Positions 6,826-38,244 of a stretch of 64,000 nucleotides of DNA are shown here, one piece after another. The number at the start of each line of letters is the position of its first letter. The stretch's first letter is position 1. This DNA is from Bacteriovoracales bacterium. Its GTDB lineage: Bacteria; Bdellovibrionota; Bacteriovoracia; Bacteriovoracales; Bacteriovoracaceae. The DNA is taken from assembly GCA_030149295.1 (NCBI GenBank), contig JASBRV010000135.1, positions 1 through 64,000 of the forward strand. Direction: 5' to 3'. The notes below the pieces were generated by a model. That model was not told where the DNA came from and ran no database searches. It saw nothing but the letters and a program-made list of their open reading frames with translations. Both the position numbers and the translations under genes were made by a program.

Positions 6826-7590
6826 TTAAATATAAAGTCCACCGTCAATTTTTATCGTTTCACCAGTAATATAACTACTCGCCTTGCTTAGCAAGAAGTT
6901 TACTAAATTCGCTACTTCTTGCGTTGTGCCAAAACGCTTCATTGGAATTCCAGAGAGATAGCTCTCCTTTGTTTCTTCCTTTAGGGCTTCCGTCATGTCA
7001 GTATCGATAAATCCAGGGCATATAGCGTTACAGCGCACATTCTTTGCCCCAAGTTCCTTGGCCATGGATTTGGTAAGACCAACCATACCTGCCTTTGACG
7101 CGGCGTATGCTATCTGGCCAGGATTTCCCATTAATCCAACGATGGAGGAAATATTGACCACGCTGGCATTCTCAGCTCTTAAAAAGCCACGGCTAAGCAC
7201 TTGGCTTACCATAATGGCACCTTTGAGGTTTGTATTAAGGGTGGCCTCGACATCTTCCTCTTTCATTCTTAAAACGAGTTGGTCTCGAGAAATACCGGCA
7301 TTATTCACAAGCCCCTCAATTGCTCCATGCTCTTTAGCGAAAGCATCGAGAGAGTTTTTAATTTGTTCTGTGTTGGTAACGTCAAACATTACCGGGCTAG
7401 CTTCGCTTGCCCCTAAGCTTTTAAGATGAGTTTTCATTTCTTCTGCGACACTTTCTTTACCTTCACGAAAATTAAAGACAACATGCGCGCCCTGTTCGGC
7501 TAAGGATTCAGCGATAGCGCGGCCGATGCCACGGGTTGCTCCAGTCACGAGAACTTTTTTTCCTTTTAGATCTTCAAATTGTGCTTTCAT
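6826..7590 (-). CDS. fabG: 3-oxoacyl-ACP reductase
   Basis: NADPH-dependent short-chain dehydrogenase reducing beta-ketoacyl-ACP (254 aa). The nucleotide-binding [12 protein letters not shown] is near residue 17, the NNAG motif is in VNNAGISRD, the catalytic serine is in NISSIVG, and YxxxK is in YAASKAG. Its ATG overlaps the fabD stop (ATGA), indicating coupled translation. Confidence 0.96.
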
Positions 7591-8540
7591 GAGAGTAGCT
7601 CCTCAAGTTCCTCAAAGGCACCCTCTTTGTCGAGAGAGATGACTTTTATGTTGCGATTAATTTTTCTGATTAAGCCCATAAGGACGCGGCCTGGACCCAC
7701 TTCAAGACAAATCGTGTCGTCTGGTAAGGCTTGAATACTTTGAGTCCAGCGAACTGAGCCATCGACTTGTTCGATAAGATTTTGTTTAATGACCTCCCCT
7801 GAGGTATCGGCAGGGTATTCCACAGCATCAATATTGGCGACGTAGGGAACAAAGCTAGGACGAAACTCGATAGTGTTGAGATGCTCCGCGAGTTTTTCCC
7901 TGGCCGGTTTCATAAGACTAGAATGAAATGGCGCCGAAACATTGAGTTCCACACAGCGATACGGGTCCGTCATATTTTCTTCAAACCACTTAACTGCTCG
8001 ATCACAAGCTTCTGCGTGACCGGAGATCACAGTTTGATTGGGCTCATTAAAATTGGCAGGCATGACTTCATTGTCTGGCTGGCTTACGGCCTTACAGCAC
8101 TCTTCTATTTTTTCCATGGGAACTTTCATGACAGCGATCATTTTGCCTTTGCCCGAAGGAACGGCTTCTTGCATATACTGGCCACGAAGGTTGACGGCTT
8201 TGACGGCATCTTCAAAGCTGATCACTTTTGCTGCACAAAGAGCAGCATACTCACCAACAGAGTGGCCTAGAACACGATCTATTTTGACTCCTTTATTAAG
8301 GAGGATTTCCCAGGCCTTATCAAAAAGGGCTACAGAATGAGTGAGAATGGCCGGTTGAGTGTTCGCTGTTAGCTTAAGCTCTTCATCGGGTCCTTCTAAC
8401 ATCATAGTTTTGAGATCAAAGCCAACTGCTTGATTAGCTTTTTCTAAAAACTGAAAAGAAGCATGGCCTTCTAAGCTTTTACCCATGCCAACGTACTGAG
8501 CACCTTGTCCGGGAAATACGAGGGTTACTGATTTCGTCAT
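7587..8540 (-). CDS. fabD: malonyl-CoA:ACP transacylase
   Basis: Loads malonyl groups onto ACP (317 aa, typical length). The family start [15 protein letters not shown] fits the ATG at 8540; an in-frame extension into fabH is not family-like. The nucleophile motif is [10 protein letters not shown], and the catalytic histidine is probably in [11 protein letters not shown]. It follows fabH by 13 nt and overlaps fabG by 4 nt. Confidence 0.96.
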
Positions 8541-8553
8541 AATAACTCCAGGA

Positions 8554-9552
8554 TTAGTAAGTGAGGAGAGTTGCCCCAAAAGTAAGACCAGCTCCAAAGG
8601 CATCAAAGAGAACGGTATCACCACGCTTAATTCGCCCATCTTCAATGGCCTCGTGAAAGGCAATGGGAACAGTGGCAGCAGAAGTGTTACCGTAATGTTC
8701 GATATTGACGATCATTTTTTCCATAGGGGCTTTAAGAAGTTTTGCTGTAGTTTCAATAATTCTAATATTGGCTTGATGGGGAACAATCCAGTCCACATCA
8801 TTAAGAGTCATACCTGCTTTATCGAGGCAGACCTTCGCATTGTTCGCGAGAGTTCTTGTGGCCACTTTAAACATTTCACCACCTTTCATGCGCATATAAT
8901 GAGATTCTTCTTTAAGGTGATGTTCTTCTATTGGTGTAACGGCCCCACCAATAGGTTGGTCGAAAAACTCAGCCCCTGAGCCATCAGTGCCGAGGTGAGT
9001 GGAATGAATGGTGGATTTTTCACCTTCTTCCGCTTGGCCAAGAATGGCCACACCACATCCGTCACCAAAGAGAATGCATATGGAGCGGTCTTTCCAATTC
9101 ACTTCTCGAGAGAGCATTTCAGATCCAACCACCAAAACATTCTTTGCCATGCCCGTCTTGATAAAACTATCCGCCATATTCACTCCGTAAACGAAGCCAG
9201 AGCAGGCCGTGGCAATATCAAAGGCGGTACACTTATTAGTAATTCCTAATTTTTGCTGAAGCACAGAAGCAGAGTTGGGAAGTTTGTAGTCAGGAGTCAC
9301 AGAAGCAAAAATGATCATGTCGATGTCATTAGGTTCCATCCCAGCTGTTCTGAGGGCTTGCCATGTGGCCTTTTCGGCCATGTCAGTGGGGTATTCACCA
9401 CCGTCTGGATTACAAATGCGACGCGCTTTAATGCCGGTTCTCTCGTAGATCCATTCATCATTTGTATCGACCATTTTTTCGAGATCAAAATTGGTCATTA
9501 TTCTTTCAGGAAGGTAGATACCTGTGCCTTTAATTTTACTGTTGTAGCTCAT
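8554..9552 (-). CDS. fabH: beta-ketoacyl-ACP synthase III
   Basis: Initiates fatty-acid synthesis by condensing acetyl-CoA with malonyl-ACP (332 aa). The catalytic triad is visible: Cys in ATACSGFVYG, His in VPHQANIRI and Asn in EHYGNTSAAT. The ATG at 9552 (MSYNSKIKGTG) gives a normal N-terminus and lies behind GGGGAAG; upstream in-frame starts at 9582 and 9594 are less likely. It is the first gene of the fabH-fabD-fabG-acpP unit. plsX, the usual neighbour between rpmF and fabH, is absent. Confidence 0.96.
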   Translation of the reverse strand: MSYNSKIKGTGIYLPERIMTNFDLEKMVDTNDEWIYERTGIKARRICNPDGGEYPTDMAEKATWQALRTAGMEPNDIDMIIFASVTPDYKLPNSASVLQQKLGITNKCTAFDIATACSGFVYGVNMADSFIKTGMAKNVLVVGSEMLSREVNWKDRSICILFGDGCGVAILGQAEEGEKSTIHSTHLGTDGSGAEFFDQPIGGAVTPIEEHHLKEESHYMRMKGGEMFKVATRTLANNAKVCLDKAGMTLNDVDWIVPHQANIRIIETTAKLLKAPMEKMIVNIEHYGNTSAATVPIAFHEAIEDGRIKRGDTVLFDAFGAGLTFGATLLTY

Positions 9553-9620
9553 ATCTTCCCCAATGGTTTGCGGAGCTTTCATAAAACCAGTCACGGTTTA
9601 TTCAGAAATTTTTAGGTTGT

Positions 9621-12867: not shown

Positions 12868-13440
12868 CTACTGTTTCTTATGATGTTTGCAGAGACCCTC
12901 GTTAAGGTTTTGACCACACTCGTGGCAAAGACCGAGACAGTTTTCATCATGAAGGGGGAAATGATCGATATTCATAAAGAGGTTTTCATGAACCATCTCT
13001 GCGATATCGGCATTTCCTTTAGTGTGAAAATAGAGACCATACTCTTCATTTTCAGTGAAAATATCGTCGAGTTCTTCAAATTCAGGCTCTTTTTCTAAAT
13101 GATGAGGGATAAAACATGCTTGGAAATCTGCATCGACATTTTGCTTTGTAAGGGTAAGGCAGCGTACACATGGGGTCATATAAGCCGCTTTGATATTTCC
13201 TTTGACCAGAAGGTGATCTCCAAAGGGTTTGCCCGATTTTCTTTTTAAGGTGAGATGACAAGAAATCATTCCCTTTTTGTAATCGGGTTCATCTCTATCC
13301 GTTTGCTCTTCGAGCTCATCAAAAAGAGCTTTTACCCAATCACAGGATTCACCTAAATCATATTCGGAGGTTTCATCAAATACATAGGATCCTAATTTGA
13401 TAACTCCTTCTATGTCTTCTTGAATATATTCGTTACTCAT
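12868..13440 (-). CDS. yceD: YceD/DUF177 family protein
   Basis: Cytoplasmic 190-aa protein of the YceD family, which in E. coli and plants supports 23S rRNA accumulation. Seen here are the family cysteines in TPCVRCL and the C-terminal CLGLCHECGQNLNE segment. ATG 13440 follows AAGGAAG closely. It is the second gene of a pair with a cNMP-binding protein. In most bacteria yceD sits directly upstream of rpmF; that link is broken here. Confidence 0.85.
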   Translation of the reverse strand: MSNEYIQEDIEGVIKLGSYVFDETSEYDLGESCDWVKALFDELEEQTDRDEPDYKKGMISCHLTLKRKSGKPFGDHLLVKGNIKAAYMTPCVRCLTLTKQNVDADFQACFIPHHLEKEPEFEELDDIFTENEEYGLYFHTKGNADIAEMVHENLFMNIDHFPLHDENCLGLCHECGQNLNEGLCKHHKKQ

Positions 13441-32560: not shown

Positions 32561-33625
32561 ATGTCCCAAGCAGCCCAGACGCAAAAGAAATCGGGTATTA
32601 GAACATTTACCCCCGGAGAAGTTCTCTTTAAAGAGAATGATCCAGCGAACTCCCTTTACATTATTCAAAAGGGTCAAATACGCCTTTACCGCCCTAAAGG
32701 TAAGGGCTTTGTTGATCTAGCGATTTTAAGGTCTGGGGAAGTTATCGGTGAAATGGCTTACTTTGATGAAAAGTCGACACGTCGATCTTGCTCAGCTGCG
32801 GCCATCGTCACCACCGACGTCATTGAAATTTCTTTTGTTGCCTTTGCCAAAACCATGGAGGGCTTGAACCCTTGGTTTAAGACTATTATTAATACGCTTG
32901 CCGATCGTCTGCGTAAGACCAATGAGAAAGTTAAAGAATTAGAATCAAACTCTGTTGGTTTTGGTGCGGGCGGGAAAGTTGCCGACTATGTTTTCTTTCA
33001 TAATAGTGACATCATTCGCGCTCTTTCCACTTTTTTTTTGGTCTATACCGCTCATGGGGAAAAACTTGAAAACGGGGCAACTCAAGTTCATTTGAACAAA
33101 CTACGTTTTTATCTATTCGACGTTTATAATTTCCCAGAGATTAAATTTGAAGAGTTTTTAAATCTTTTAAAAGAAGCTGGCATGGTGGAGATGGTGAAAG
33201 ACGACGATGGTCTTCCCAAAAATATTCGCACCCAAAATGTCACTCAGTTTCGATCAATTGCCGTTTTTATGAATCAACAGCGATTGGTTGATGATGCCAA
33301 GAAAATTACGATTTCCTCAAAATGTGAAAGGTTCCTTAGTCGCGTTCTCCTTCAACTGAAGTCCGCAGATAAACCTCAGGCCATGGCCGATATCAGTGCC
33401 ATATTAAATCATTTTAAAGAAGGAAATGTTCCCATCACTGATGAAGACTTTCAGGATGCCATTAAAAGTGGTCTTGCTGAAGATGTGTTAGTCGGTGAGG
33501 GGAATAAATTAACTTCCGTCGTTCATATTGAAAAACTTCGAATGGTTTATCCGGCCCTTGTTATGCAAAATGCTGTTAAAAAGATCAATGAAAGCAAGGC
33601 AAAACAAGGCCAAAAAGGTTACTAA
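32561..33625 (+). CDS. cyclic nucleotide-binding domain protein
   Basis: Protein of 354 aa. Residues 12-125 are a cNMP-binding fold (TPGEVLFKENDPANSLYIIQ, SGEVIGEMAYFDEKSTRRS), followed by a helix with NTLADRLRKTNEKVKEL. The C-terminal 200 aa are unrecognised and include a region resembling a winged helix (FEEFLNLLKEAGMVEMVKDDD). The last 17 codons (from 33575) are duplicated at 37691-37741, where they form the right boundary of an island. The stop would originally have overlapped the convergent gene now at 37738. Confidence 0.88.
   Translation: MSQAAQTQKKSGIRTFTPGEVLFKENDPANSLYIIQKGQIRLYRPKGKGFVDLAILRSGEVIGEMAYFDEKSTRRSCSAAAIVTTDVIEISFVAFAKTMEGLNPWFKTIINTLADRLRKTNEKVKELESNSVGFGAGGKVADYVFFHNSDIIRALSTFFLVYTAHGEKLENGATQVHLNKLRFYLFDVYNFPEIKFEEFLNLLKEAGMVEMVKDDDGLPKNIRTQNVTQFRSIAVFMNQQRLVDDAKKITISSKCERFLSRVLLQLKSADKPQAMADISAILNHFKEGNVPITDEDFQDAIKSGLAEDVLVGEGNKLTSVVHIEKLRMVYPALVMQNAVKKINESKAKQGQKGY
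33575..33625 (+). repeat. 51-bp direct repeat, left copy (att-like)
   Basis: The 3' end of the cNMP-binding gene, encoding its last 16 residues plus stop. It is repeated at 37691-37741 with one mismatch (the sixth base, A here and G there, synonymous). Sequence similarity stops abruptly at both ends. Confidence 0.9.
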
Positions 33626-33790
33626 GTAACCTGTGAGAGAGATTTTTCTTAGCATTTAAGGTACTAATTTACTTGTAGCGAATTAATAATTTCCTAAAAT
33701 CACGTTTGGTGGTACAAGAAGTTCCTTTTCACAATCAAGACAGAACTCGTGGCTTAACTTTTTCTCAGTAATAATACCTCAAGAGTTATT

Positions 33791-34564
33791 ATGGAATATT
33801 ATAGACAAGTACTTAAACAAGACTACGAAAAACGCCTCGCAAAAAATAATGCGTTCTCTATTCGGTCTTATTCTCGTTATTTAAACATACCTCAGAGTAC
33901 ATTACTTGGGGTGTTAAACAACAAACGTGACTTGCCGCTCCGCTATGTAGACTTACTTATAAATAAGATGGAATTAGCTCCAAGTGAAAAAGGACTTTTT
34001 GAAAAAAGTGTTCGTCTTAGTAAGCAAAACTTAAAAGAAATCGGCTCGGTGAAAATTGATAATTCAGATGAACGAGTTTTTGATGAGCAGATTGATTTTG
34101 ATATAATTTCTAGTTGGAAGTATCTCGCTTTTTTAAATCTATTTAAACTAACGGATAATCAATTTGATCCAGAGAACTTTTCAAAGCGATTGGGAATTTC
34201 CGTGCAAGAAGTAGAGAAGCTTAAAAGTGACCTTTTATTAAGAGAGTATATACAGGAAAGAGACGGTCGATATTTTCGTTCAAATACAAAGTTCTCTAGT
34301 ACCCAAGATATTAAATCAAAAGCACTAAAATATGCACATCTAGATATTTTAGATTTGGCAAAAGATAAAATTGACTCTGTGGACATTGAAGATCGATTTT
34401 ACTCTTCAACTATTTTTCCTGTAAAAAAAGAAAAAATCGTTCAAGCAAAAAAAATAATTAGAGAATTTAGAGATAAGCTTTCCGACTTTCTTTCGGATAA
34501 TCCTAGTGATGAAGTTTATAATTTAAGTGTTCAATTATTTCCTCTAACTGAGAATAAGGAATAA
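33791..34564 (+). CDS. TIGR02147-family putative regulator
   Basis: Protein of 257 aa that fits the TIGR02147 family, which is expanded in Fibrobacter and Bdellovibrio-like bacteria and often sits next to secreted protein genes. The N-terminal region (about residues 18-50, RSYSRYLNIPQSTLLGVLNN) reads as a helix-turn-helix, followed by LPLRYVDLLINKMEL and a middle winged-helix-like region (FSKRLGISVQEVEKLKSDLL). The C-terminal part has FYSSTIFPVKKEKIVQAKKI, a typical ending. The stop overlaps the next ATG by 1 nt (TAATG). It is likely the regulator of the island's secreted proteins. Confidence 0.8.
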   Translation: MEYYRQVLKQDYEKRLAKNNAFSIRSYSRYLNIPQSTLLGVLNNKRDLPLRYVDLLINKMELAPSEKGLFEKSVRLSKQNLKEIGSVKIDNSDERVFDEQIDFDIISSWKYLAFLNLFKLTDNQFDPENFSKRLGISVQEVEKLKSDLLLREYIQERDGRYFRSNTKFSSTQDIKSKALKYAHLDILDLAKDKIDSVDIEDRFYSSTIFPVKKEKIVQAKKIIREFRDKLSDFLSDNPSDEVYNLSVQLFPLTENKE

Positions 34565-35223
34565 TGATGTTAAAGATATTAATAGCCTTTTTATTAGTCT
34601 CAACTTCTTATGCTAATAAACTTAACTTTGATAATAATCTTGTCGACTTTAAATCGTTAGGTGATGATCGTGATAATGGAGGAGACGGTATTATCTTGAA
34701 GGATGGAAGTATTATTCTCAGAGAGCTATCTTATAAACAAGATCAAATTTTCATTGGAAAAGAGATTTATAATATCGTTCCCGATTATTCTCATCTAGTT
34801 GAAAAAATTGGAAAAATTCATCCTAAATTAGCCCGAAAACTTTTGAATACAACGAGAAAACTTCGTTTTGTTTTTTTAGAGAGGCCGTTACCCGAATTGA
34901 AGCTAAAGGATACTTCTTTTGAAAAACCAAAAGGCCAGGTGATCCAATTGGCGATTCACAGAGAAAATAAGTTTGTATTCTTATATAAAAATGCATTCGA
35001 GAGACTTCGTGATCCCGAATTTTTAATTCTCCATGAAGTTCTTCATTCCCTTGTTTCAAGGTTTACAAGTAACTCTAAACAATTAAACCATCTTCAAGTT
35101 AGAGGTCTAACTAATTTTATCTATCATAATATTGATAAAAACCTCTCAAAAAGGGATCTTGTCAAGGCCATTCGTAAATATCAGATAGTCTTTTTTAAAA
35201 AAGGTATTAATAAATACGACTGA
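34564..35223 (+). CDS. secreted HExxH putative metallopeptidase
   Basis: Protein of 219 aa with a signal peptide (MMLKILIAFLLVSTSYA; start at 34564 or at the adjacent ATG 34567). The zinc motif is H157-E158-V-L-H161 in LILHEVLHSLV. The GGDGIILKDGSIILRELS segment near the mature N-terminus recalls small secreted Bdellovibrio proteins of this kind, which is from memory. A third zinc ligand could not be assigned. It is translationally coupled to the TIGR02147 gene. Peptidase activity is inferred from the motif only. Confidence 0.7.
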   Translation: MMLKILIAFLLVSTSYANKLNFDNNLVDFKSLGDDRDNGGDGIILKDGSIILRELSYKQDQIFIGKEIYNIVPDYSHLVEKIGKIHPKLARKLLNTTRKLRFVFLERPLPELKLKDTSFEKPKGQVIQLAIHRENKFVFLYKNAFERLRDPEFLILHEVLHSLVSRFTSNSKQLNHLQVRGLTNFIYHNIDKNLSKRDLVKAIRKYQIVFFKKGINKYD

Positions 35224-35281
35224 TCTAATCCAGTGATCCAAATCCTTTGACTCAGAAATCTCTGTAAATCAAATGAATTTA

Positions 35282-35309
35282 TTGTTTGTTATTAATTTGT
35301 TCCTACAAT
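35282..35309 (+). promoter_or_regulatory. candidate promoter for the CxxCH protein
   Basis: TTGTTT (35282-35287) and TACAAT (35304-35309) are 16 nt apart, 33 nt upstream of the ATG at 35343. The -10 matches five of six and the -35 is weak. Confidence 0.4.
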
Positions 35310-35342
35310 GATCGATAAAAACAGATGAAAAGGAGAAAGGTT

Positions 35343-37352
35343 ATGAAAGTTTTAAATTTTCTAATATTTACCTTAGCGATAAATTTATCGGTCCAAGGAA
35401 ATATTAATAGTAAGTCTGATATCAAAGAACATAAATCCGTTATGATTCGCGATACTGAGATTGTAGAAGATAATGAGTATATTCGTTATCATTTTAATAT
35501 GGGGAAGCTTCTAGGAGATATTGCCTTAAGAGAGCTTAAGGGTTCCGGGGGATCTAGAAGTTCTACAATTTATCAAGGTTTTTGTTCCGGAAATATTGGT
35601 GACGACGATTGTCCTAGCGGCTATACGGTTGGATATTATGTTCAACGTATTTTTAATATGGCCAATGAAGAACAAGCCGATTTTATCGCCACTGGTAATA
35701 CATTAAACGGTGTAACAAGAACAAAAGTTTCAACTAATGCTGGTTTGTTTGATTCTGGTCGTAGAATGAATGATATTTTCAAAAATTGGCATAAGCTTAA
35801 TTGGAATAGTAGTGCAGCCGTTGGTCAAAGATTAACTGTTACAAGTAATACGATTGCTCAAACAAACTCTGGTCATTCTGGCGATGAGATTGAAAAGGCT
35901 CGTAATTATCTAAAAAAGAAAAATAGTTCAGCCTGGATGGCCTCGTCTCGCTTTAAGTTACTTGCAATCGCAAATAGGTTAGATCTTGCAGATAATTATG
36001 ACGCCCGTATTACTGGAACAGCCTCTATCCACCCTAGTTATTATGGAGAAGTTCATCTAATTTTTGGGATACAAGATGATACGATGGAAGCGTCTGGAAA
36101 TGCATTCCCTATGACTTTTTCTATGTCGTTTAGAAATCCACTTATCTCTAATAATGACTTCAATATAAGTGGCACCAATGAAGCTAATTATAATTTAACT
36201 CTTTCTAATCCATCGGATAAAAACCAGCCTAGTGATGCTAATTGGAAAACTTATATCAAAAGATGGTCAAAGAAATGGTCTAAACTTTCAGATTATAATA
36301 TTACTAGTAACAATTATCAGAATCGTTTAATAGCGATTTTAAATACAATTGTTAAACCGGAAAATTTTATTGGCCTTAGAAGTAATACCCAAATTTCAAG
36401 CAATGAGTATGAAATTCGTGAATGGTATATTTTTAGAAGTGCAATTGTTCGAAATAATAATAATAGTTTAAACAGAGGCCAGTTAATTCCAAGAAAACCT
36501 AAAAATCAGCCTTATGAATGTTTAAATAAATCAAATGCCCTTACAAATCTTGTTTTAGATAATTGGGATAGTACTAATGGTGATTTAAAAGTTAAACATA
36601 TATTAGGTCAGGGAATGACTTATAATGTAAACCGTGATCCTTATTATGAAGAAACCCGAGCCGGTTATGCTGTCCTTAGAGAAAAAGATGATCGTCCATT
36701 CTTTTTAAAAGCTTCCTCTGCCCATGACTGGGATTATGATACGAATTTTGTAAGTTATAATTCAACTGGTGAAGTTAGTTCGTCTGAAGCAACAAATTAT
36801 TGGAAATTTGCTAGTGGTGTAAGTGGATCTTGTGGTGATACTTACGAAACAATGCCTTTCTATATGCTAACGGGAGAAGGGAGAAATGATGGCCCATGGG
36901 ATAGGTCAACTGGCTCATACAGCACAGACCCTTTAACTACTACCCATGGCTACGCAACGAAAAAAACGAGAGCGGCGAAAAATCAATTAATGATGCTCGC
37001 TCCTTTTGGGCGCGTTCGTAAGATTAATAGCAAATGGGGTTATGTTTGGCAGAAAAGATCTGCTTGGTCAGAAGGACAAAGGCATGCTTTTGCGATCAGA
37101 ACATGTACTGGTTGTCATTCGCAAGAAGGCGCCGCCGATCAAGCTTTCCACGTAAAACCAAGAGTTGATGGATCTGCTTCTAAACTTTCTCCTTTCCTTG
37201 AGGGAGGAAGTGGTTCTAGCTTTAGCAGAAATAGTGCGACTTATAATTATGATGTCCTTCAATGGAGAGTCGATTTTCTTTGGGATACACACCCGAATAA
37301 ACCATCCGTAAATCCGGTTCGGTACGATAATTTGAGAAGACCTGAGTTATAA
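35343..37352 (+). CDS. large secreted CxxCH-motif protein
   Basis: Protein of 669 aa, exported by a signal peptide (MKVLNFLIFTLAINLSVQG). AAGGAGAAAG precedes ATG 35343. It contains FKLLAIANRLDLADN with GEVHLIFG and MTFSMSF further on, and a single c-type-heme-like motif TCTGCH (Cys588, Cys591, His592) followed by AFHVKPR. From memory this order matches a family of myxobacterial and Bdellovibrio secreted proteins of unknown function. It is Asn/Ser-rich. A single CxxCH could bind heme or be structural. It is the largest island gene and is followed by a strong hairpin. Confidence 0.8.
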   Translation: MKVLNFLIFTLAINLSVQGNINSKSDIKEHKSVMIRDTEIVEDNEYIRYHFNMGKLLGDIALRELKGSGGSRSSTIYQGFCSGNIGDDDCPSGYTVGYYVQRIFNMANEEQADFIATGNTLNGVTRTKVSTNAGLFDSGRRMNDIFKNWHKLNWNSSAAVGQRLTVTSNTIAQTNSGHSGDEIEKARNYLKKKNSSAWMASSRFKLLAIANRLDLADNYDARITGTASIHPSYYGEVHLIFGIQDDTMEASGNAFPMTFSMSFRNPLISNNDFNISGTNEANYNLTLSNPSDKNQPSDANWKTYIKRWSKKWSKLSDYNITSNNYQNRLIAILNTIVKPENFIGLRSNTQISSNEYEIREWYIFRSAIVRNNNNSLNRGQLIPRKPKNQPYECLNKSNALTNLVLDNWDSTNGDLKVKHILGQGMTYNVNRDPYYEETRAGYAVLREKDDRPFFLKASSAHDWDYDTNFVSYNSTGEVSSSEATNYWKFASGVSGSCGDTYETMPFYMLTGEGRNDGPWDRSTGSYSTDPLTTTHGYATKKTRAAKNQLMMLAPFGRVRKINSKWGYVWQKRSAWSEGQRHAFAIRTCTGCHSQEGAADQAFHVKPRVDGSASKLSPFLEGGSGSSFSRNSATYNYDVLQWRVDFLWDTHPNKPSVNPVRYDNLRRPEL

Positions 37353-37360
37353 TCTCATAT

Positions 37361-37385
37361 AGGAGACTAGTTTCGCTAGTCTCCT
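37361..37385 (+). terminator. hairpin after the CxxCH gene
   Basis: A 10-bp perfect stem, AGGAGACTAG/CTAGTCTCCT, with a TTTCG loop, 8 nt after the stop. The downstream T-run is poor (TTGACTC), so termination may be partial or need Rho. Confidence 0.65.
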
Positions 37386-37690
37386 TGACTCATACCCTAC
37401 CTCTTGAAATAAAATTCTATATGAGAAATATAGAAAGAGAACCTAGGTTTTTTTAATTTAAACCCTTAATGAATTTACTTCTACTCATTTTGCAAAAAGA
37501 GAGAAGCGAAGAAACGATTATTGCTCTCTTTCCACTTGTGATGTCGGGACTAAGATTAGTTATTTCTTCTATCGTAGCGCGCTCATCTCGCTGGGTGTGG
37601 CCTTCGGCTTAAAAGTAGGTATGTCCACACTTTTGGGACTAAAAGCATTAAACGCATCAAGTCCCAAGATTATCCACGTACCTTAAGCGC
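37386..37690. other. non-coding, hairpin-rich right end of the island
   Basis: About 305 nt without a convincing gene. It contains inverted repeats AAAGAGAG/CTCTCTTT (37496-37503 and 37524-37531), GTGTGG/CCACAC (37595-37600 and 37625-37630) and TTGGGACT/AGTCCCAA (37633-37640 and 37660-37667). A 46-codon reading from 37469 has no ribosome binding site. It may be a structured RNA, a recombination site or gene debris. Confidence 0.45.
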
Positions 37691-37741
37691 GTTAAGAAGA
37701 TCAATGAAAGCAAGGCAAAACAAGGCCAAAAAGGTTACTAA
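37691..37741 (+). repeat. 51-bp direct repeat, right copy (att-like)
   Basis: A second copy of the 3' end of the cNMP-binding gene, still in an open frame ending in the same stop. Its last bases overlap the stop codon of the convergent membrane protein gene at 37738, which suggests this is the original chromosomal gene end. Confidence 0.9.
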
Positions 37742-38244
37742 TCTTTTTTCACTTCGTAGTCAGCTTCAAAAACGTCCCCCTCAGAGACATTATAATGAGC
37801 GCGAGTTTCCTGCCCGGAGTAAGATTCACTTGATTCTGGTCGATCACCATAAGCGCGGCCATTGATAATAACAGTTTTTTTAAAGCGAAAGGGATGCTTT
37901 CTATTAAAGACCACTGTCTTTTCAGATGTTTCACCCCCGAGGGCCACAAGCCAAGAAATGACGACGAGTATGGGGTTGCTCTGCCAATAGGCGATTGTCG
38001 CCAATACGGCCACAAGAAGACGGGGACTAAAGAGCCAAGCAAGCCACCATAAAAAACCACCAGAGGCGACGGAGCTAAAGAGAAGAGTGAGGCGAGGAAA
38101 GAGAGTCACAAAAAAAAGAAAAAAGACGCCTCTTGTCTCCCAGTAATTATCAACACCAAACTCAATATCAAAGACGTTCATCAGGATGGTTGAGCCACCA
38201 GTGATGCAGAGAAATATAATAAAAATTTTAAAAAGCTCTTTCAT
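37738..38244 (-). CDS. hypothetical membrane protein
   Basis: Protein of 168 aa with an N-terminal hydrophobic helix (residues 4-22) and two or three more (about 37-55, 60-75 and 78-100), followed by a polar C-terminus of about 65 aa likely in the cytoplasm or periplasm (KKTVIINGRAYGDRP...). Family not recognised. Its stop overlaps the right copy of the direct repeat, so it was the ancestral convergent neighbour of the cNMP-binding gene. Confidence 0.65.
   Translation of the reverse strand: MKELFKIFIIFLCITGGSTILMNVFDIEFGVDNYWETRGVFFLFFVTLFPRLTLLFSSVASGGFLWWLAWLFSPRLLVAVLATIAYWQSNPILVVISWLVALGGETSEKTVVFNRKHPFRFKKTVIINGRAYGDRPESSESYSGQETRAHYNVSEGDVFEADYEVKKD

Follow-up and report, generated by a model that had tools for sequence, protein, structure and literature searches.

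The duplicated end of a cNMP-binding gene

How the end of a cNMP-binding gene came to stand twice, on either side of a 4.1-kb segment with three genes, is the question raised by this locus. It lies in the window, by which we mean the whole 64,000-nucleotide stretch of DNA that was analysed, from the draft genome of a Bacteriovoracales bacterium (G000). The site itself comprises the following features:

32561..33625, + strand: host gene for a cNMP-binding-domain protein, 354 aa (PF00027, 66.5 bits); its last 51 bp are the left repeat
33575..33625, + strand: left copy of the 51-bp direct repeat, attL-like (repeat comparison)
37691..37741, + strand: right copy of the 51-bp repeat, attR-like, which gives the convergent gene its stop (repeat comparison, ORF list)
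37738..38244, - strand: convergent host gene, 168 aa, membrane-like by eye, which adjoins the cNMP gene in six of six congeners

The direct repeat of 51 nt (33575-33625 and 37691-37741) has its copies 4116 bp apart, and these agree at 50 of 51 bases (98%), with a longest shared exact run of 45 bp. The lone mismatch is AAA against AAG; both encode Lys, so that the difference is synonymous in the frame of the cNMP gene, and the stop of the ORF at 37738-38244 falls within the right copy. An earlier note on this DNA had described the repeat and its overlap with that stop in the same way. In 26 other genomes, the sequence downstream of this gene was searched for the best match to its final 51 bp; these genomes were 20 family members (about 12 kb downstream, about 5 kb in one of them) and six congeners (1.5 kb). 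A chance origin of the repeat is excluded, because these matches reached only 23-29 of 51 bases, with a shuffled maximum of 25-29 in the 20 of the 26 genomes for which shuffles were made. Within 419 kb of this genome, a chosen and non-random sample, the window repeat was the sole repeat at an ORF 3′ end that passed the scan thresholds (at least 20 bp, 90% identity, spacing of 600-20,000 bp); the list from that scan does not include the copies of a tRNA end on contig C53 that are described below.

A duplication created by the assembly is highly unlikely. It would suit a draft assembly that comprises 140 contigs and has an estimated contamination of 5.01, but the site lies inside the 248,940-bp contig C12. 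Moreover, the ends of two other contigs share exactly 141 bp; the word size used in the assembly was thus probably 141, far above the length of the 51-bp repeat.

The empty site in relatives and the age of the insertion

Searches with the cNMP protein gave a match at E ≤ 0.001 in 48 of 59 genomes, including its own, some of these matches being to the cNMP domain only. In all six congeners the cNMP gene and the convergent gene are directly adjacent and the island is absent; none of the three island proteins had a match within 1.5 kb on either side of the gene at these loci. The stops of the two genes overlap tail to tail by 4 bp in the nearest congener, and the same overlap appears in the window once 33626-37741 is removed. 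Given this overlap, DNA inserted here without duplicating a gene end would damage one gene or the other; in the window, the neighbour takes its stop from the right copy. The proposal that the segment entered at a gene 3′ end and left the gene restored was borne out by these relatives, as none of the six that have both flanking genes carries the island.

Compared with the nearest congener, the host gene is identical at 775 of 1065 positions, i.e., 290 positions differ; 151 of 355 third codon positions agree, and in the repeat region itself 33 of 51 bases match. The copies in the window are alike at all bases but one while the host gene has diverged this much, so the insertion is much younger than the species split, unless gene conversion homogenises the two 51-bp copies. 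The comparison shows that the insertion is derived, precise and recent, and it provides one clean case, recent relative to the species split, in which an insertion at two overlapping convergent genes left the genes intact. The opposite history, in which the island is ancestral and was precisely deleted in the relatives, is hardly credible; direct repeats permit precise deletion, but the loss would be needed in six of six congeners, and the 51-bp copies should then have diverged like the rest of the gene.

The composition of the segment was also described as AT-rich and unlike the flanks, which proved accurate. The GC content of the island is 0.343 against 0.401 for the remaining window, lower than in all 259 sampled non-island stretches of equal size (minimum 0.373). 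The GC3 values of its three genes (0.236, 0.259 and 0.250, or 0.24-0.26) fall below the minimum of 0.29 among the 57 other ORFs of the window, for which the mean is 0.365. The 4.1-kb segment is a compositional outlier and looks foreign. Relatives carrying the island and a flank-like composition were the two findings that the earlier note had named as counting against its claim, and in both respects the outcome favoured the claim.

A proposed integration without a recombinase of its own

Three ORFs of at least 80 aa occupy the segment:

33791..34564, + strand: regulator, TIGR02147/DUF4423, 257 aa (TIGR02147, 91.4 bits against a cut-off of 50; PF14394, 137.5 bits against a cut-off of 30)
34564..35223, + strand: "sec1", 219 aa, with a signal-peptide-like start by eye and an HEVLH motif
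35325..37352, + strand: "sec2", 675 aa, with a signal-peptide-like start by eye and one CxxCH (CTGCH), as in c-type haem proteins

The regulator gene passes the curated score cut-offs for TIGR02147/DUF4423, and the signal-peptide-like starts of sec1 and sec2 are judgements by eye. Among these ORFs no match to a recombinase family was found in Pfam or NCBIfam, nor any match to a transfer family. The content is therefore as first described, that is, a TIGR02147 regulator, two proteins with secretion-like starts and no recombinase match. A DDE transposon or insertion sequence was rejected, as there was no transposase match and the flanking duplication is 51 bp; no inverted pair of at least 18 bp joining the two ends of the island was present among the 12 pairs listed. 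An integrative mobilizable element (IME) or autonomous integrase island was also set aside, since the ORFs and the Pfam and NCBIfam searches gave no integrase of its own near one end.

We consider, with moderate confidence, that the segment is a recently acquired, recombinase-less site-specific island and that the duplicated gene end represents attL and attR. An incoming DNA molecule carrying a copy of about 51 bp from the very end of the cNMP gene would recombine with the 3′ end of that gene; this would restore the gene as well as the convergent neighbour that overlaps it, and the repeat would then flank the insert. We infer a site-specific crossover of the att type, catalysed by a recombinase that came from elsewhere or has since been lost. 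The confidence is only moderate because the repeat has no inverted-repeat core, no recombinase has been connected with the site, and duplication of the gene end is seen in none of the 26 other genomes. The inverted-repeat score within the 51 bp was 0, and 500 of 500 shuffles scored at least as well; a short inverted repeat matching at 7 of 8 positions, a figure that stands without a shuffle comparison, covers the left junction and 15 bp of the island. The gene end is also poorly conserved among the 26 genomes. On the same grounds, and with no partner recombinase identified, the suggestion that the island moved in trans was not sustained.

These observations bear on a serious rival, homology-assisted capture, which we consider unlikely on the whole. 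By homologous or homology-assisted illegitimate recombination, DNA from a relative, bearing both the island and a duplicate of the gene end, would have been joined by a single crossover or a template switch, without any site-specific enzyme. A 51-bp stretch without an inverted-repeat core, a segment without a recombinase and the missing duplications in the 26 genomes would all be expected of such an event, and the noncoding ends of the island are mosaics of dispersed repeats of the same genome, like DNA shuffled within the accessory genome. However, the boundary of the repeat coincides with the stop codon and both overlapping genes are restored, and a donor arranged in this way needs explaining.

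Under site-specific integration, possible helpers are available in this genome, which has 13 Phage_integrase matches, 12 of them above the cut-off, and also an island at tRNA-Ser with its own integrase, described below. Six recombinase proteins out of these 13 matches, used as queries, gave no matches in the stretches downstream of the cNMP gene in 20 relatives. A 28-bp piece of the 51-bp repeat was absent from the viral_contigs collection, where the regulator also had no confirmed relative, and no related autonomous element turned up in the searches made, which spanned only part of the ICEs and IMEs.

Dispersed repeats at the noncoding ends

Outside the three genes, the island ends are composed as follows:

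33626..33790, + strand: left noncoding end, containing the dispersed repeat 33658-33729, palindromic by eye
37468..37613, + strand: first ~146 bp of a dispersed element, which reaches about 340-400 bp on contigs C35 and C42
37612..37690, no strand assigned: REP-like palindrome that cuts the dispersed element short, with copies on C95 (two), C44, C136 and C41 and also in congener G004

The left-end repeat at 33658-33729 has two copies on contig C42 of this genome (91-95%) and a 35-bp match on C53. Matches to the dispersed element were obtained in 9 of 39 genomes, including its own. These repeats, which may resemble dif and attC sites, mark the segment as accessory DNA.

The repeats could also be the working ends of a cassette system, in which modules of a regulator and exported proteins would be moved by a dedicated enzyme that recognises 33658-33729 and 37468-37690, and not the 51 bp. 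We regard this as improbable. In its favour, C42 has further copies of both island-end repeats close to toxin-antitoxin-like genes, and C53 has part of the left one next to another TIGR02147 module. The motif TTTACTT[GC]TA occurs a single time in either end of the island and nowhere else in the 64-kb window. Relatives of these DUF4423 regulators are also present near the element at L112 and L114 (about 3.8 and 0.8 kb away), 2 of the 11 other element loci fetched, but they were not found at the remaining nine. Furthermore, the motif was picked post hoc, and with one mismatch allowed it occurs 19 times in the window against a shuffled mean of 16.5, and exact flanking repeats are missing at 8 of 10 DUF4423 loci. 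A copy of the dispersed element does lie about 1.3 kb from a recombinase gene on contig C27. This recombinase was rejected as an integron integrase, as it scored 36.9 bits against the TIGR02249 cut-off of 265 and below every other listed NCBIfam cut-off. It was also set aside as evidence for an in-trans integrase, on account of these scores and because 38 of 39 genomes have similar recombinases (the best non-self matches being 33-39% identical). Integron gene cassettes are recombinase-free modules, and the island shares this property; in contrast, it is a single insertion with a 51-bp coding repeat, which does not look cassette-like.

Self-comparison of the element stretches L110-L114, which come from other genomes, revealed no repeat arrays like those on C53, and the dispersed repeats were dropped as candidate cassette ends. 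An ORF beside the element in L066, guessed by eye to be a regulator, was not supported on search. The two Rfam matches (E 0.13 and 0.45) lie below the gathering score and were put down to chance.

Other DUF4423 loci of the genome

Ten DUF4423 matches were obtained in this genome, the window regulator included, and exact flanking repeats of at least 16 bp were present at only two of these loci; the other eight, several of which sit on short contigs, had none. Contig C53 carries a module downstream of tRNA-Phe in which two related signal-peptide-like proteins enclose a TIGR02147/DUF4423 regulator (177 and 87.5 bits), and this module is flanked by 16-25-bp copies of the tRNA-Phe 3′ end. The copies sit within repeated units about 376 bp long and may therefore be parts of dispersed repeats and not att sites. 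The module is absent downstream of tRNA-Phe in four congeners (8.6 kb covered in G006 and about 1.5 kb in G001, G002 and G003); the G005 contig stops at tRNA-Phe, and G004 gave no match to the query.

With the window and the C53 module as examples, one might propose that TIGR02147/DUF4423 regulators and exported partners travel family-wide as recombinase-free cassettes at gene 3′ ends, copying the gene end and using a host or phage recombinase in trans. We find this generalisation improbable.

Comparison with known mobile islands

CIMEs (cis-mobilizable elements), as outlined in PMC5704250, keep att-type repeats and have lost the genes for integration and transfer. The island resembles them in its att-like direct repeats at a specific site, a gene 3′ end that is empty in six of six congeners, and in its three ORFs of at least 80 aa without integration or transfer family matches. 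It differs in having just three genes and in that no integrase-bearing related element was found for the site. With two of four listed CIME features present, we provisionally class it as CIME-like; the other two are an origin from an ICE or IME by loss of genes and mobilisation by a related element, and for this island both would be putative. The same review gives repeats of 8-60 bp for tyrosine-recombinase elements, with which the length of the window repeat and its target, the 3′ end of a protein gene, agree.

Among the ssrA islands of Dehalococcoides, 15 without an integration module are reported in PMC3146451. They are likewise bounded by gene-3′-end repeats; according to the same paper, a likely ssrA-specific serine recombinase is encoded on sister islands, and the tmRNA site has been used many times, unlike the window site, for which a single use was seen. 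As both kinds of element are described in PMC5704250 and PMC3146451, calling the island an undescribed system, as had been proposed, was too strong. It looks like a small passive mobile island of an already known kind. A further comparison is provided by the tRNA-Ser island on contig C111 of this genome, 5.15 kb long, which is also compact and has a direct repeat (26 bp) from a gene 3′ end; it carries its own integrase, whereas the window island has none.

Should the 51-bp copies function as att sites, three genes could pass between strains as a unit that has no enzyme of its own. This would, if true, show the spread of the little-studied TIGR02147/DUF4423 regulator family together with exported partners.

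Predicted cargo

The cargo is probably an accessory trait. From their adjacency, we infer that the regulator may control one or both of the predicted exported proteins. A DUF4423 protein, Bd3700, is listed in PMC12546842 among the proteins raised in Bdellovibrio during growth in prey.

The sec1 protein is possibly metalloprotease-like. H157 and E158 are kept in six of six rows of its alignment and the second His in four of six; two of these rows were picked as regulator neighbours and three are partial weak matches. It belongs to no Pfam or NCBIfam family. In sec2, C594, C597 and H598 are kept in three of three aligned rows, and no Pfam family was assigned. Matches to sec2 were limited to 2 of 59 genomes, and its profile matched in 3 of 129 family genomes, the third match being short and weak; both counts include its own genome. 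The plasmids collection contained no match, and a PDB profile search with sec2 gave three matches (E 0.37-0.58), taken as chance. A second copy of sec2 lies on contig C43 of this genome, on which there is no DUF4423 gene, and this paralogue has a Cytochrom_C match under the cut-off (11.5 bits, E 0.81). Predicted structures had a mean pLDDT of 36.5 for sec1 and 27.5 for sec2, and both are unusable.

On contig C15 of congener G005, a sec2 relative is found together with a regulator and a sec1-like gene, in an arrangement that differs from the window. The regulators are 32% identical and the sec2 proteins 55%, and the G005 module has no flanking direct repeats of at least 25 bp. With Pfam opened up to E 5, only sub-cut-off matches were obtained, including PhageMetallopep (13 bits, E 0.11) for the sec1-like protein of G005. 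The PHROGs search of the island proteins gave no matches. The G005 module may itself be a second insertion; at four loci of dhs, its neighbour gene (G002, G006 and two in G000), no YaiI gene was present over about 1.5 kb or less on each side. A PADLOC search with the regulator returned a single weak match (19.5 bits, E 1.2e-4), to part of a type I specificity subunit.

Surroundings of DUF4423 regulators

Inspection by eye of the regions beside DUF4423 regulators revealed genes for signal-peptide-like proteins at the fetched loci L123, L124 and L039 and at 34564-35223 of the window, and a GNGGD-like motif was seen near the start of the protein at all 4 places. Three further loci, one of them in the window's own genome (G000), carry such regulators or their relatives:

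L129 (G000, contig C120), 1722-9806: phage-type integrase and DUF4423-plus-exported-protein module
L112, 11168-11935: DUF4423 regulator relative near the dispersed element
L114, 11004-11768: DUF4423 regulator relative near the dispersed element

The module of L129 lies ~5 kb away from the integrase. In L112 and L114, from two other genomes, the dispersed-element copy is ~3.8 kb and ~0.8 kb, respectively, from the regulator relative.

tRNA loci and repeats

L115 (G000, contig C53), 1695-5640: tRNA-Phe, repeat units and TIGR02147 module
L160 (G000, contig C111), 6115-11294: 5.15-kb island at tRNA-Ser
L057 (G000, contig C42), 1-7000: exported-protein-like ORFs and toxin-antitoxin-like pairs

Downstream of tRNA-Phe, ~376-bp units each repeat the tRNA 3' end, and two of them flank the TIGR02147 module. 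By eye, the units contain long imperfect hairpins, whose stems vary from copy to copy with matching changes. The tRNA-Ser island has a 26-bp repeat and carries a tyrosine integrase gene of its own. In L057, 2 exported-protein-like ORFs and three toxin-antitoxin-like pairs (weak YafQ/HTH-like, HI1419/HI1420-like and HipA/HipB-like) lie amid the same dispersed repeats as those at the ends of the window's 4.1-kb island.

Copies of the REP-like palindrome in L060, L062, L064 and L065 appeared on inspection to be bordered by short local duplications of junction sequence. In L058 (G000, contig C35), the 3' part of a gene judged by eye to be transposase-like is partly duplicated (7275-9557). L040 (G000, contig C43) holds a 51-nt repeat, apparently palindromic by eye, whose copies at 13214 and 18510 are 76% alike.
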